Shown: in pieces, positions 9,011 through 39,006 of the stretch
How positions within the stretch are numbered: the first letter of the stretch is position 1
How the letters are laid out: each line of letters starts with the position of its first letter
Assembly (NCBI GenBank): GCA_019351895.1
Contig: JABBOH010000028.1
Coordinates: forward strand, 23,915 to 62,931
DNA: 39,017 nt
Direction: 5' to 3'
Source of the DNA: Pseudomonadota bacterium
Lineage (GTDB): Bacteria > Pseudomonadota > Alphaproteobacteria > Acetobacterales > Acetobacteraceae
Position numbers and translations under genes: made by a program
The notes under the pieces: generated by a model
The model's database searches: none
What the model was told of the DNA's origin: nothing
The model's input: only the letters and a program-made list of their open reading frames with translations

Positions 9011-9087
9011 TGGCAGGGGTGGAGGGTCTCGAACTCTCAACCTCCGGTTTTGGAGACCGGCGCTCTAGCCAATTGAGCTACACCCCT
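9011..9087 (-). tRNA. tRNA-Trp (anticodon CCA)
   Basis: On the minus strand the sequence folds as a complete cloverleaf. The acceptor strands AGGGGTG and CACCCCT pair over 7 bp. The anticodon arm is CCGGTCTCCAAAACCGG with CCA in the loop. The T arm contains GTTCGAGAC, and CCA is encoded at the 3' end (9011-9013). It directly precedes secE, probably within the same transcript. Confidence 0.97.
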
Positions 9088-14284: not shown

Positions 14285-14370
14285 GGAGGGGTGCCCGAGT
14301 GGCTAAAGGGGACGGACTGTAAATCCGTTGGCTAACGCCTACGTTGGTTCAAATCCAACCCCCTCCACCA
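14285..14370 (+). tRNA. tRNA-Tyr (anticodon GTA)
   Basis: The acceptor strands GGAGGGG and CCCCTCC pair fully. The anticodon arm ACGGACTGTAAATCCGT carries GTA. There is a long variable arm, as expected for this class II tRNA, then the T arm TTGGTTCAAATCCAA and an encoded CCA end. It is divergent from rlmB. Confidence 0.97.
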
Positions 14371-35081: not shown

Positions 35082-35816
35082 CTATTTGCGGCCGTTCGGG
35101 GAGGCGCGGAGCCCTTCGGCGGCACTCATGACGGCCGATGCGCGCAGAAGCATGGCCGCGAGCGACGCCTGCGAGGTCATGCCCGTCTGCATCAGCAGCT
35201 TCTTGAGCCGGGTGCGGACGGTGCCGATCGGGAGGTTCTCGGCTGTCGCGAAATCGGCGAGGCTGTGGCCGACGGCGAGGCTCTCGGCCAAGGCGGCGTT
35301 CTGGGGCGAGAAGCCGAAAGCGGCGCGAGACCATCCGGCGGCGAGCAGCAGCGGGGCGCGCAACTCGCTGATGGCCACCAGCACCAGCGGTTCGCCCTCG
35401 AGCGGCCTGATGTGCATGAGCGCGCTCGCCTCCTCCTGGCGGGTGAGGAAGCGGATCAACTCCGGCTCTCCGCGTGCGGCGACACGGTTGACGGCCTCGG
35501 CCATGGCCGCGGCGTCGGCGGCTCGGCGTATCACGAGGCGGTTCTGGTGGCGGCGGAAGGCGCGGGAGACGCGCAGCAACTCCTGCCCGGCAGCATTGCT
35601 ATCGAGGATTTCGCTGTTCGGCCGCAGCACGAAGACCGGCACGGACAGGATGTCGAGGAGCGCGCGCGTGGCTTGGGCCAGAGGCTGAGCCGAGGGGCAG
35701 TCAGCCGGAAGCCGCGCATCCAAGGTCGCATTCGATTCGGCAAGCCGGGAAATTATTATCTTAGCCTCCAGTCTCCATAAGCCTTCCGCGAAAAGGGCGC
35801 GGCTGTCCGCATACAT
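35082..35816 (-). CDS. LuxR-type helix-turn-helix regulator with PAS-like N-terminus
   Basis: The 244-residue protein has a PAS-like segment (about residues 50-110: [20 protein letters not shown]) followed by about 60 residues of mixed structure. The C-terminal HTH (about 167-230) has the LuxR/GerE layout: [20 protein letters not shown], then [20 protein letters not shown]. The usual Glu and Thr signature residues are partly replaced. A 19-bp palindrome lies 20 bases upstream of its start. Neighbours are glk-tal downstream on the same strand and the decarboxylase-hss genes in the opposite direction. Which of them it controls is unknown. Confidence 0.8.
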
Positions 35817-35835
35817 CCTTCGGCTCGGAGACCCA

Positions 35836-35854
35836 TCCGTTTGACCTTAACGGA
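35836..35854. promoter_or_regulatory. 19-bp palindrome upstream of the LuxR-type regulator
   Basis: TCCGTT-N7-AACGGA is a perfect interrupted palindrome ending 20 bases from the regulator's start codon, an autoregulatory position. Twelve of its bases (CCGTTTGACCTT) recur exactly, inverted, at the glk promoter. A half-site CCGTTT also occurs at 35929-35934. Confidence 0.5.
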
Positions 35855-36011
35855 AGATCGCGATTTGCCGATATAGCAAGGACAAAAATCCAGGCCTCGT
35901 CATTTCGCCTCCTTGAGAAGTGTACCCGCCGTTTACCGGTCCTTGATGTCACAGCATAGCCGAGGGGCGAGATCGGCATCCCCGGGGGGTCTAATCCTCT
36001 CTATATCTCCT

Positions 36012-36340
36012 GCCGCGCCTGATAGCGCGAGACTCGACGCAACCGCACGTGCCGCGAGCCCCCTCGGGGGCACAGCAACGACGTAACGCGTCCTTTTTGG
36101 TCCAGCCGGTCCCAACCCCGACCGGTGTCCTTAAGGGAAACGGATATGTTTTCTGTTCCGCACGCTGCGATGCCCCTTCATCGCACAATCGTCTGACCGT
36201 CCCGCCGGCTCGCTGACGCCGGTTTGACTGTCATCTGTGGGTCCGTCGACGGTGCAACCTCCGTCGCCGGTCCTGGTCCATGCGCGACCCTTCGCATGTT
36301 CAAGACGTCACATCCGCGCCTGACCGCGGATGCTACGAGG
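36012..36340 (+). ncRNA. Candidate speF-type 5' leader RNA of the decarboxylase operon
   Basis: The speF motif is a roughly 400-nucleotide conserved leader found upstream of proposed ornithine decarboxylase genes in alphaproteobacteria. Here the same gene type is preceded by a long, gene-free, stem-rich leader with GCGCCTGATAGCGC, GACGCAACCGCACGTGCC and GACGTAACGCGTCC blocks that look conserved rather than random. The last hairpin (36311-36332) ends 3 bases before the GAGG ribosome site of the decarboxylase and could control its access. The exact 5' end is not known. Assignment is from recall of context and structure, not from a covariance search. Confidence 0.6.
36146..36196 (+). CDS. 16-residue upstream ORF (candidate leader peptide) in the decarboxylase leader
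   Basis: ATG at 36146 is preceded by AAGGGA with 7-base spacing, a better ribosome site than many genes here have. The peptide is MFSVPHAAMPLHRTIV, ending in TGA at 36194-36196. The hairpin TGCGATG-N6-CATCGCA (36166-36185) lies inside the ORF, so a translating or stalled ribosome would open it. The architecture recalls the enterobacterial SpeFL arrest peptide that senses ornithine ahead of speF, but the sequences are not obviously related. Function is inference. Confidence 0.5.
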   Translation: MFSVPHAAMPLHRTIV

Positions 36341-36348
36341 ATTGTTCG

Positions 36349-37578
36349 ATGAGCCAAATCCGTTCCCGCGCCGCTGTCTCGCCATTTCGTCGTATCTCCG
36401 GCGAGGCGTCATTCCGTCTGCCCAGCGTCGATGAGGCGGTTCTCGCCGCCCAGCCGGCCGAGCCCATGCATTGCCTCCGCCCCACGGTGATCACCGACAC
36501 GGCCGCCCGCTTCGCGCAGAGCTTTCAGGGCGACGTGCTCTATGCCGTCAAATGCAACCCGGAACCCGCGGTTCTGCGCGCGATGTGGGAGGGTGGCATC
36601 CGCCACTTCGACTGCGCCTCGGCGGGCGAGGTGTCGCTCGTGCGGCAGATGTTCCCCGAAGCCGACATCCACTTCATGCACCCGGTGAAGTCGCGCCCGG
36701 CCATCCGCGAGGCCTATTGGCGCCACGGCGTTCGGGACTTCGTGTTCGACAGCGCCGGCGAACTCGGCAAGATCATGGAAGAGACGGAGCAGGCGGCCGA
36801 TCTTGGCCTCGTTGTGCGGCTCGCGCTGCCGGCGGGCGGGGCGATGTACGACCTCTCGGGCAAGTTCGGTGCCGCGGTCGACGAGGCGGCCGAGCTGCTG
36901 CGTGCGGCCCGTCCGCGCGCCCTGAGGCTTGGCGTGTCGTTCCATGTCGGTTCGCAATGCATGGACCCGCTCGCCTATCGCCGCGCGCTGGTGCTGGTGG
37001 GCGACGTGATCCGCCGCGCCGGCGTCGCCATCGACATCGTCGATGTGGGCGGCGGTTTTCCGGTGAGCTACCCAGATATCGAGCCGCCGCCGCTCGGTGC
37101 CTACTTCGCCGAGATCGAGGGCGCCTTCGACGATCTAGGCCTCCCCGCGGCGCGTCTCTGGGCCGAGCCTGGGCGCGCGCTGGTCGCGGCCGGCGCCTCG
37201 GTCGTGGTGCAGGTGCAACTGCGGCGCGGCGACGTGCTCTATGTGAATGACGGCGTCTACGGCAGCCTGTCGGACGCGGGCGCCCCTGCCTTCCGCTTCC
37301 CCGCGCGCCTCATCCGCGCCGGGGCTAAGCCATCCGAGGAGCCGCGCGCCTTCGCATTCTTCGGGCCGACCTGCGACAGCGCGGACTATATGAAGGGGCC
37401 CTTCTGGCTCCCGGCGGACATGCGGGAAGGCGATTGGATCGAGATCGGCCAGCTCGGCGCCTACGGCGCTTGCCTGCGCACTGCCTTCAACGGCTTCGAC
37501 CGGGCACAGCTGGTGGAGGTGCGGGACGCGCCCATGCTGCGCACACCCGGACACGAGCCGCTGACCCTCGCCGCCTGA
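36349..37578 (+). CDS. Ornithine/lysine-type decarboxylase (fold type III, PLP)
   Basis: The 409-residue eukaryotic-type decarboxylase has PLP lysine Lys68 (LYAVKCNPEP), His199 (FHVGSQC), the phosphate-binding GGGFP (234-238), EPGR (273-276) and the catalytic Cys342-Asp343 (GPTCDSADYM). It converts ornithine to putrescine, and in some members lysine to cadaverine. The ATG at 36349 has GAGGA upstream; an in-frame ATG at 36280 lies within the leader hairpins and is less likely. Homospermidine synthase follows after 27 bases, which makes putrescine supply the most likely role. The long leader suggests post-transcriptional control. Confidence 0.94.
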   Translation: MSQIRSRAAVSPFRRISGEASFRLPSVDEAVLAAQPAEPMHCLRPTVITDTAARFAQSFQGDVLYAVKCNPEPAVLRAMWEGGIRHFDCASAGEVSLVRQMFPEADIHFMHPVKSRPAIREAYWRHGVRDFVFDSAGELGKIMEETEQAADLGLVVRLALPAGGAMYDLSGKFGAAVDEAAELLRAARPRALRLGVSFHVGSQCMDPLAYRRALVLVGDVIRRAGVAIDIVDVGGGFPVSYPDIEPPPLGAYFAEIEGAFDDLGLPAARLWAEPGRALVAAGASVVVQVQLRRGDVLYVNDGVYGSLSDAGAPAFRFPARLIRAGAKPSEEPRAFAFFGPTCDSADYMKGPFWLPADMREGDWIEIGQLGAYGACLRTAFNGFDRAQLVEVRDAPMLRTPGHEPLTLAA

Positions 37579-37605: not shown

Positions 37606-39006
37606 GTGAAGCACGTCACTTTTTCTGGTCGTCTGGTCATGGTCGGCTGCGGCAGCATTGGCCAGGGCGTGTTGCCGCTGATCCTGCGCCACATCGATCT
37701 CGCGCCGGCGCAGATCACGATCGTCAATTCCGATGAGCGCGGCCGCGCCATCGCCGAGGCGATGGGCGTGAGTTACCGCGTCTCGCCGCTGACGCGGGAG
37801 AATGTCCGGGAGGTCCTGGCGCCGCTGGTGGGCCGGGGGGATTTCCTGCTCAACCTCTCGGTCGATGTCTCCTCGGTGGCGCTGATCGGCTTCTGCCGGG
37901 ACGTGGGCGCGCTCTACCTCGACACTTGCGTCGAGCCCTGGGCGGGCGGCTACACCGATCCGTCGCTCACGGCCTCGCAGCGCTCGAACTACGGGCTGCG
38001 GGAGTCCGCGCTCGCGCTCGCGGGCCAGGACGGCCCGACGGCGCTCATCACCCACGGCGCCAATCCCGGCCTCGTCTCGCATTTCGTCAAGCAGGCGCTG
38101 CTCAATGTGGCCGAGGACATGGGCCTCGTCGCACCTGTGCCGACCACCCGGGCCGAATGGGGCGCGCTCGCACGGACGCTGTCGGTCAAGGTGATCCACA
38201 TCGCCGAGCGGGACACGCAGGTGGCGAGCATCCCGAAGCAGCGGGACGAGTTCGTGAACACCTGGTCGGTGGACGGTTTCGTGGGCGAGGGCTGCCAGCC
38301 CGCCGAACTCGGCTGGGGGACGCATGAGACCGTGTGGCCCGCCGATGCGCGCCGGCATGAGTTCGGCTCTGACGCCGCGATCTATCTCGAGCGTCCCGGC
38401 GCCTCGACCCGCGTGCGCAGTTGGACCCCTCTCGAAGGCCCGTTCCACGGCTTCCTCATCACCCACAACGAGTCGATCTCGATCGCGGACTACTACACCG
38501 TGCGGTCGGACGGCGCGGTGGTCTACCGCCCGACCGTGCATTACGCCTACCACCCGGCGGATGACGCTGTGCTCTCGATCCACGAGCTCGCCGGCAAGAA
38601 CTGGGAGATGCAGAGCCGCACCCGGCTGATGATGAACGAGATCACCTCCGGCATGGACGAACTCGGCGTCCTGCTCATGGGCCACGATCGCGGCGCCTAT
38701 TGGTATGGCTCCCGGCTCACGATCGAAGAGGCGCGGTCGCTCGCGCCCTACAACAACGCGACGAGCCTGCAGGTGACGGCGGCGGTGCTGGCGGGCGTCA
38801 TCTGGGCGATGGAGAACCCCGCGCGCGGCGTCATCGAGCCGGACGGGATCGACCACGAGCGGATTCTGGAGATCACGCGGCCTTACCTGGGCGAGATGGC
38901 GGGCGTCTATTCGGACTGGACGCCGCTTGCGGATCGCGGGCGATTGTTCCCCGAGGCGGTGGATGAGAGCGCGCCCTGGCTGTTCGGCAACTTCCGCGTG
39001 ACCTGA
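37606..39006 (+). CDS. hss: Homospermidine synthase
   Basis: The 466-residue NAD-dependent enzyme condenses two putrescines (or spermidine and putrescine) to sym-homospermidine, a characteristic alphaproteobacterial polyamine. It shows the N-terminal nucleotide site MVGCGSIGQGVLPL, DTCVEPWAGGY, ITHGANPGLVSHFVKQ, and the long C-terminal part with HEFGSDAAIYLERPG, GKNWEMQSRTRLMMNEI and GVYSDWTPL. The start is GTG at 37606 with a modest CGGGA site. It is translated from the same message as the decarboxylase upstream. It ends 11 bases before the window edge. Confidence 0.95.
   Translation: MKHVTFSGRLVMVGCGSIGQGVLPLILRHIDLAPAQITIVNSDERGRAIAEAMGVSYRVSPLTRENVREVLAPLVGRGDFLLNLSVDVSSVALIGFCRDVGALYLDTCVEPWAGGYTDPSLTASQRSNYGLRESALALAGQDGPTALITHGANPGLVSHFVKQALLNVAEDMGLVAPVPTTRAEWGALARTLSVKVIHIAERDTQVASIPKQRDEFVNTWSVDGFVGEGCQPAELGWGTHETVWPADARRHEFGSDAAIYLERPGASTRVRSWTPLEGPFHGFLITHNESISIADYYTVRSDGAVVYRPTVHYAYHPADDAVLSIHELAGKNWEMQSRTRLMMNEITSGMDELGVLLMGHDRGAYWYGSRLTIEEARSLAPYNNATSLQVTAAVLAGVIWAMENPARGVIEPDGIDHERILEITRPYLGEMAGVYSDWTPLADRGRLFPEAVDESAPWLFGNFRVT

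Follow-up and report, generated by a model that had tools for sequence, protein, structure and literature searches.

The speF leader RNA, which precedes ornithine decarboxylase (ODC) genes in Alphaproteobacteria, was described together with the ar45 motif as the 'extended speF element' (Corbino et al. 2005, PMC1273637). In that report, no measurable binding of ornithine, lysine, diaminopimelate, putrescine, cadaverine or spermidine is given for the Agrobacterium speF RNA (PMC1273637), and in 2020 the function of the speF element was called unclear in a report that describes ar45 of Bartonella as an independently expressed, terminated short RNA (PMC7717549). An upstream open reading frame (uORF) of 11 aa, odc1 (uORF-25-1), was published in 2021 for alphaproteobacterial decarboxylase leaders, and both start codons were reported to work in E. 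coli reporters (PMC8632094). Here, the leader of an ODC-type gene (35817-36348) was analysed in a stretch of 39,017 nt from an Acetobacteraceae genome (GCA_019351895.1, contig JABBOH010000028.1), hereafter the window, and all coordinates are positions within it. Comparison with related loci indicates that a diverged form of the extended speF element is followed in this leader by a micro-ORF kept as a reading frame. A first-pass annotation had read the leader as a speF-like RNA with an embedded micro-ORF acting on downstream hairpins; its observations were confirmed and its interpretation was partly supported.

The micro-ORF, a uORF of 16 codons on the + strand, begins with ATG at 36146, ends with TGA at 36194-36196 and encodes the peptide MFSVPHAAMPLHRTIV. 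Its ribosome site AAGGGA (36133-36138, +) is located 7 nt before the ATG, and a 7-bp hairpin, TGCGATG-CCCCTT-CATCGCA (36166-36185, +), lies inside the frame; the coordinates of all three check out as first annotated. Relatives of the decarboxylase were collected from 14 of 40 genomes (the window's own included) and from 80 loci of named records, many of them Acetobacteraceae. Among 84 loci (the window's group), the RNA element described below was found upstream in 76, was absent by pattern in 6, and 2 had too little sequence. A purine-rich site followed by ATG or GTG and by an in-frame stop at 11-25 codons was present in 75 of the 76 element loci (exception L082). The window's own copy is one of the 76, among which two pairs of leaders are identical. 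The other two frames stop within 11-25 codons in 7 and 17 of the 75. For the 73 distinct leaders these numbers are 6 and 16, and the ribosome-site spacing is 6-8 nt in 71. The median micro-ORF length is 16 codons, and the 75 stop codons are TGA (67), TAA (4) and TAG (4), with TGA/TAA swaps between near relatives (L048/L049, L054/L055, L067/L072). Conservation of the ORF among relatives, which the first-pass annotation had proposed as a check, was therefore observed for start, ribosome site, frame and stop in 75/76 loci, and neither a lack of conservation nor frameshifts among relatives appeared.

The distance from the start to a landmark ATG of the internal hairpin takes the values 24, 21 and 15 nt and is divisible by three in 59/59 loci (16 loci are without the landmark), whereas the spacers from stop to decarboxylase leave remainders 0/1/2 in 22/35/18 loci. 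A similar pattern was observed in a second order of the class (that of genome G089), where 31 loci carry uORFs of 32-45 codons; read in the other frames, 3 and 0 loci stop within this length. The distance from start to UCSAGUAU takes seven values there (84-123 nt), all multiples of three (31/31), and the spacer remainders are 10/9/11. A chance ORF in a structured leader is extremely improbable: a purine-rich site in front of a short ORF is nothing unusual, but start, frame and stop recur in 75/76 loci and the landmark distances keep the frame in 59/59 and 31/31. By this comparative evidence, the micro-ORF is real and under selection for its frame, as is expected of the leader ORF of an attenuator. 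Two 25-codon uORFs (L022 and L045) resemble in-frame insertions, and the extra part of that in L022 holds a 9-bp hairpin.

The structured RNA ahead of the micro-ORF was described from an alignment of 49 elements (A1), in which the window contributes 36036-36148. An ar45-like branched stem (36036-36092, +) is formed by pairing of GACGC (36036-36040) with GCGTC (36088-36092) and contains the conserved CGCACGTGCC and GCAACGACG as well as the inner stem GCCCCC/GGGGGC (36058-36063/36066-36071, +). The inner stem (helix 3) shows both-side changes in 4/4 pairs; the outer helices are nearly invariant, with 9/12 pairs never changing and a single double change from CG to UA (L039/L048/L049). Behind the stem follows the terminator-like tail CTTTTT (36093-36098, +), which together with 36080-36092 was the one terminator-like site found by a scan expected to give 0.3 (sd 0.7). 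In the consensus fold, CTTTTT instead has the micro-ORF ribosome site as its pairing partner (alternative helix 4), where 95.9% of cells are paired, yet 3/4 pairs vary on one side only. The hairpin CCGGTC/GACCGG (36105-36126, +) resembles speF hairpin 1 in position and sequence and corresponds to the first RF00518 hairpin; its helices 5-6 show both-side changes in 5/6 pairs. Over the whole consensus structure 96.5% of cells pair and 11/26 pairs show both-side changes, values reached by 0/500 shuffles; the structure was derived from the alignment on which it was scored, and the evidence for it lies in the inner stem and CCGG hairpin.

The covariance model of RF00518, which had been proposed as a check on the speF-like label, did not hit the window, whether at the gathering cut-off or at E up to 10, nor did it hit the window's genome or any of the 40 genomes around (own included). 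RF02347 (ar45) was likewise unmatched in the window at the gathering score and at E up to 10, and neither family matched 9 related leaders (E up to 10) or 20 further loci (E up to 0.1). RF00518 was rejected as a direct label for the leader on these grounds. RAGATH-21 and CcsR1 matches in the window (E 3 and 1.9) were dismissed as chance. Elsewhere, RF00518 matches at E up to 0.001 were obtained in 6/190 class genomes, in 7/10 genomes of one order and in 50/121 of another, the carrying group presumably being Rhizobiales. In 3/3 RF00518 loci given to cmscan, RF02347 directly precedes RF00518, and the window leader has the order of these ar45+speF loci: CGCACGTGCC, GCAACGACG, U-rich tail, CCGG hairpin, GAAG(A/G)GG.

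A covariance model built from the 49-element alignment without any RF00518 locus (R1; the 20 further loci above are R1 loci) detected the ar45/speF place of 34/41 RF00518 loci at E up to 1; 17 of these matches fall below 0.001 and the best reaches 1e-7, the E-values being rough and some of the 41 loci near copies. Three further R1 matches elsewhere in these loci have E 0.8-0.97. Because R1, built without RF00518 loci, matches ar45+speF loci, the window leader is, on this profile evidence, a diverged and, in Rfam, unrecognised branch of the extended speF element. It belongs to that element in the broad sense of common descent by a shared sequence-structure profile, and it stands upstream of an alphaproteobacterial fold-III ODC as RF00518 does, while remaining below the gathering scores of RF00518 and RF02347. 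The speF-like assignment of the first-pass annotation thus stands through R1 and fails for RF00518 itself, for which its named refuting outcome, no covariance hit, is true.

R1 also shows how far the arrangement extends. The element was found in 39/289 class genomes (own included), which cover 31/224 genera, at 52 places and often more than once per genome, and in 70/76 genomes of the second order. R1 ends with AUG, and the class search therefore favours AUG-bearing loci. At 50 of the 52 places (G396 and G414 were left out), a separate uORF precedes the decarboxylase in 33 and homospermidine synthase in 4; the element start codon opens the decarboxylase frame in 6, the main gene is unrecognised in 5, and a start codon is absent in 1. 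In this reading, the start choice was automatic and rough (L143, L145 and L155 come out two codons longer than in an earlier reading, and the 4-codon reading of L204 is doubtful), and the two enzymes were recognised by a short motif. L158, L162, L195, L196, L198, L200 and L201 carry a uORF-less form of the leader, in which the decarboxylase frame begins at the start codon of the element, whether or not it is extended N-terminally. The element with its own short uORF precedes homospermidine synthase at L139, L141, L160 and L205, the peptide being APPPRIER*-like in L139 and L205. At L151 and L206 an R1 element is followed by an in-frame long ORF without a visible decarboxylase or homospermidine synthase motif, glutamine-amidotransferase-like by eye in L151.

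In the RF00518 leaders, no conserved frame was found at the equivalent place: the distance from UUG to GUGCGG is in frame in 32/37, but the next landmark is out, with remainders of 19/11/7 from UUG to CCAA (37 of the 41 loci; L104, L114 and L129 lacked a pattern match and one more lacked the landmark). A uORF in these leaders is supported neither by reading frames by eye nor by this remainder test. The missing frame would agree with an RNA-only regulator of the speF type, in which the upstream RNA senses a signal and controls termination and initiation and the micro-ORF is a mere landing site behind it. The covariation of the inner stem and CCGG hairpin, the terminator-like tail and the several loci whose element start codon is the decarboxylase's own are also in line with it. 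This explanation is nevertheless considered unlikely, as it leaves unexplained the conserved separate frame with its stop and internal hairpins, and six polyamine-pathway compounds showed no measurable binding to the Agrobacterium speF RNA in the reported assays (PMC1273637).

With a little better than even confidence, the leader is instead predicted to be a ribosome-controlled attenuator of polyamine synthesis. Two parts of the proposed course are shown by the comparisons: the ar45/speF-related RNA, whose U-tailed stem lies just before the micro-ORF ribosome site, and the micro-ORF, kept as a reading frame with a hairpin inside. The 3' arm of this hairpin is then suggested to have two alternative partners, the 5' arm of the hairpin and the ribosome site and start of the decarboxylase. 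With a ribosome seated on the micro-ORF, the decarboxylase site would be accessible; with the micro-ORF empty or slow to initiate, it would stay closed. Rho termination may be added in the C-rich spacer where no ribosome shields it. The signal would come from the polyamine pathway (ornithine, arginine supply, putrescine or homospermidine) and could act via initiation on the upstream RNA or via ribosome pausing on the micro-ORF, in which many relatives have the rare codons CGA and AGU. Ribosome traffic might thus be set by the upstream RNA (through pairing of the U-tail with the uORF site), by slow codons, or by the nascent peptide with a ligand.

The downstream half of the leader offers the structures for such a switch. 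Folding of the leader was better than 100/100 dinucleotide shuffles in two cuts (z -3.1), and perfect stems of at least 6 bp between 36030 and 36348 are located at 36058/36071 (6 bp), 36106/36125 (6), 36166/36185 (7, in the ORF), near 36247-36266 (CGACGG/CCGTCG, 6 bp), at 36279/36298 (6) and at 36311-36318 with 36325-36332 (8). The last is the hairpin CATCCGCG/CGCGGATG (36311-36332, +), which ends 3 nt before CGAGGA (36336-36341), the ribosome site of the decarboxylase ATG at 36349; a similar hairpin was seen by eye in L002 and L004. The at least five perfect stems and the final 8-bp hairpin first annotated are present, and the leader features are above chance in folding and in the recurrence of ORF, ribosome site and hairpin among relatives. 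Stems of at least 6 bp inside the uORF were found in 47/66 distinct uORFs compared with 17.9+-3.2 in synonymous recodings (the same peptides rewritten with the decarboxylase's codons), and in 29/30 compared with 9.3+-2.5 in the second order. In the window, TCATCG in the hairpin 3' arm (36178-36183, +) is a candidate anti-RBS (RBS, ribosome-binding site), complementary over 6 nt to CGATGA (36347-36352) at the decarboxylase start.

In 70 loci (L076 had no detected ODC start), the longest perfect uORF:RBS complement has a mean of 6.31 nt, compared with 5.45+-0.13 in recoded uORFs and 5.61+-0.13 with swapped partners (0/200 each), and reaches 7-11 nt in Neoroseomonas-type loci, with up to 11 nt in L070. 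Some decarboxylase starts in the window's group were extrapolated from the protein match and are possibly off by some codons. The duplex energy of these loci also beats swapped partners (0/200). For the second order (in which L179 lacked a detected ODC start in the uORF survey), the uORF:RBS duplex is -26.95 kcal/mol compared with -21.02+-0.57 for recodings (0/200), and whole-uORF folding energy falls below the recodings in this order alone (z -0.79); in the same comparison the first ODC codons gave z +1.70 and internal ODC codons z -0.20. The predicted openness of the RBS there rises from 0.24 to 0.39 when the uORF is ribosome-covered and to 0.37 with the first dozen codons covered, other 35-nt blocks giving 0.29. 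In the window itself, covering the uORF raises the predicted openness from 0.23 to 0.42, with a mean of 0.26 and a best value of 0.37 for control blocks.

Several results weigh against a ribosome-controlled attenuator. Whole-uORF folding energy in the window's group is not lower than in the recodings (z +0.39), and the uORF:RBS duplex energy is no better than that of recodings (43/200 as good) and better than that of other segments of the same leader in just 36/70 loci. Over the 73 leaders of the window's group, openness changes just from 0.328 to 0.366 with the uORF covered, compared with 0.352 for other blocks; covering the uORF opens the site in 30/73 and closes it in 9/73, whereas the control mean opens 38, and every control is beaten in 11. 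Even in the second order, the site is opened by uORF cover in 23/30 and by the mean of control blocks in 20/30. The amino acids are unprotected in the window's group, since changes in 345 equal-length pairs fall at codon positions 1/2/3 in 25/42/34%, and only weakly protected in the second order, with a mean BLOSUM62 of 0.25 in frame compared with -0.12 and -0.15 off frame. In the loci whose element opens the decarboxylase (6/50 by script, plus L196), the uORF is by their sequence dispensable. Finally, the loci are related by descent and the counts are not independent. As a general effect in the window's group, opening of the decarboxylase site by an occupied uORF is weak.

For the peptide, the synonymous bias proposed as a check in the first-pass annotation was not borne out in the window's group, and the third-position excess that is the classical protein-coding signal was not found there. 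The peptide is weakly conserved in this group and clearly conserved in the second order, where the peptides are related, with AGR in 29/31, SS(I/M) near the end in 31/31, SSIG as the very end in 20/31 and NP(L/F)SS in 6. A Pfam search with three long uORF relatives (38-59 aa, E up to 1) found no family, PF10940 (the orf34 family) included. A likeness of MPLHRT/MPHVR to the orf34 core was too short to count.

A SpeFL-like arrest peptide, by which the micro-peptide with ornithine or a polyamine would stall the ribosome near the stop, keep Rho off the spacer and open the decarboxylase site, could draw on the conserved peptide end of the second order (SS(I/M) in 31/31, SSIG* in 20) and on the conserved short length (median 16 codons). 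The spacer (36197-36337, +) is a candidate Rho-loading region with C over G (0.376 vs 0.291); C is above G in 64/75 spacers, compared with 41/75 decarboxylase starts, a composition that would weakly suit Rho and that agrees with this explanation. Salmonella orf34 is reported to block Rho and open the speF site (PMC6386406). An arrest peptide is still doubtful for the window's leader: residues change freely in the window's group, the C-terminal residues differ among lineages, no Pfam family including PF10940 was met in the three long peptides, and in the second order, parking the ribosome at the stop gives the RBS no more openness than other blocks do (0.271 vs 0.292).

Rare codons raise a further explanation, in which ribosome speed at Arg and Ser codons (CGA, AGU, Arg-rich ends) would report arginine or charged tRNA, i.e. 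precursor supply. CGA makes up 30/172 Arg codons and AGU 30/124 Ser codons in the uORFs, compared with 1.3% and 1.2% of the respective codons in the decarboxylases, a strong over-use and a nucleotide signature that stands, in the window's group, in place of protected amino acids; CGA accounts for 24/30 Arg codons after the internal Met, and some Neoroseomonas uORFs have 6 Arg in 18 codons (L066, L071). Two Arg codons are reported to sense arginine in Salmonella orf34 (PMC6386406). The window's uORF has a single Arg codon, CGC, and CGA and AGU could be kept as hairpin and loop bases rather than as codons; such codon-supply attenuation is considered quite improbable.

A broader proposal is held tentatively, at somewhat less than even confidence. 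The speF/ar45 leader would at root be a translation gate, its RNA governing how ribosomes load at the conserved site that follows; in many alphaproteobacterial lineages this site would feed a dedicated uORF, and the uORF ribosome, not an aptamer, would be the polyamine sensor. RF00518-type lineages would lack or have lost the uORF, and in some lineages the gate would open the decarboxylase directly.

The leader is flanked by a divergent regulator-like gene (35082-35816, -) and the decarboxylase gene (36349-37578, +). The latter encodes an ODC-type enzyme of fold III with 409 aa (Pfam PF02784 and PF00278), whose nearest solved chains are lysine/ornithine decarboxylases; NCBIfam models all stayed under cut-off for it, the best being lysA with 133 of 298 bits. 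The next downstream gene (37606-39006, +) encodes a homospermidine synthase of 466 aa (PDB homospermidine synthases, E 4e-171 to 3e-151). The divergent gene has weak PAS and LuxR-type (FimY/TraR) matches, all below curated cut-offs, and may encode a regulator devoted to the polyamine operon. Outside the RNA, the inverted-repeat-containing block CCGAGGGGCGAGATCGGCATCCCC (35960-35983, GGGG...CCCC, strand unassigned) lies upstream of the candidate promoter and may be an operator for this regulator; a nearly identical block, CCGAGGGGAAAGATCGGCATCCCC, occurs at a similar distance in L004/L016/L017 (L016 and L017 recorded as Acidisoma). TATATC (36002-36007, +) is a candidate -10 element with a predicted transcript start near 36014, and TATATC or TATATA is present in close relatives; a generic promoter scan of the leader found no promoter, this candidate included. 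Because conservation among relatives starts at 36036 and TATATC lies at 36002-36007, the part between 35817 and about 36015 probably belongs to the promoter region rather than to the leader; the 532-base leader first annotated holds its features and would be shortened by this part. Two tRNA genes lie in the window, at 9014-9087 (-) and 14285-14367 (+).

From the 84 loci, L050 and L074 (short upstream sequence) and L036, L080, L090, L091, L093 and L094 (no usable anchor) were dropped, and outside the 84 stand L003 and L005 (on contigs as long as those of L019 and L017, respectively), L008-L015 (distant or partial) and L092 (gene start lacking). R1 was run on 13 loci, mostly anchor-less, and gave true-looking elements in L014, L036 (cut end of the element) and L082; no match in the remaining ten was below E 0.25. 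The decarboxylase and leader of L032, L051 and L085, recorded as Solirubrobacterales, Nitrosovibrio and Rhizobium, look like the Acetobacteraceae group, and these are probably misnamed metagenome-assembled genomes.

The alphaproteobacterial speF element has been without a ligand since 2005, and the frame-conserved micro-ORF behind it offers a concrete start-codon test. The ar45 and speF entries of Rfam are linked to a third, unrecognised branch, and some homospermidine synthase genes are tied to the same control. Among known systems, classical ribosome-mediated and erm-type translational attenuators also use the position of a ribosome on a short ORF to select between hairpins; unlike these, the window's uORF is preceded by a conserved, separate RNA element that bears a terminator-like tail. 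The enterobacterial SpeF enzyme has another fold. The extended speF element shares with the window's leader its place upstream of an alphaproteobacterial fold-III decarboxylase, its motif order and its R1 matches, but the downstream half of RF00518 is replaced by the uORF, and the outer stem is GACGC/GCGTC rather than GCCC/GGGC. Where ar45 of Bartonella is reported as a terminated short RNA, the window shows a terminator-like tail.

The odc1 motif likewise joins a structured RNA and a short uORF before an alphaproteobacterial ODC (PMC8632094). It is described with a peptide of 11 aa without length variation and a UUG start 2 nt upstream of the gene's UUG (PMC8632094), whereas ATG or GTG uORFs of 11-25 codons occur in the window's group and the window has a uORF of 16 aa whose ATG lies 203 nt ahead of the ATG of the gene; the adjoining UUG starts and 11-aa peptide of odc1 are thus absent from the window. 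A short peptide in an alphaproteobacterial decarboxylase leader, for which the first-pass annotation knew of no described peptide-based mechanism, is thus not wholly new, although odc1 has a different architecture. A literature search, with subscription papers outside it, found no paper joining speF, a leader peptide, ornithine and Alphaproteobacteria; RF00518 is named in 4 papers, and the main text of an S. meliloti small-protein paper (PMC10117765) mentions neither ornithine nor speF. By analogy, Salmonella orf34 (SpeFL) is the closest working model, with a translated uORF in the long leader of an inducible ODC and pairing between uORF and decarboxylase-site RNA (PMC6386406). The reported orf34 starts at nucleotide 32 of its mRNA (PMC6386406), whereas the window's uORF is preceded by an RNA element of some 110 nt.
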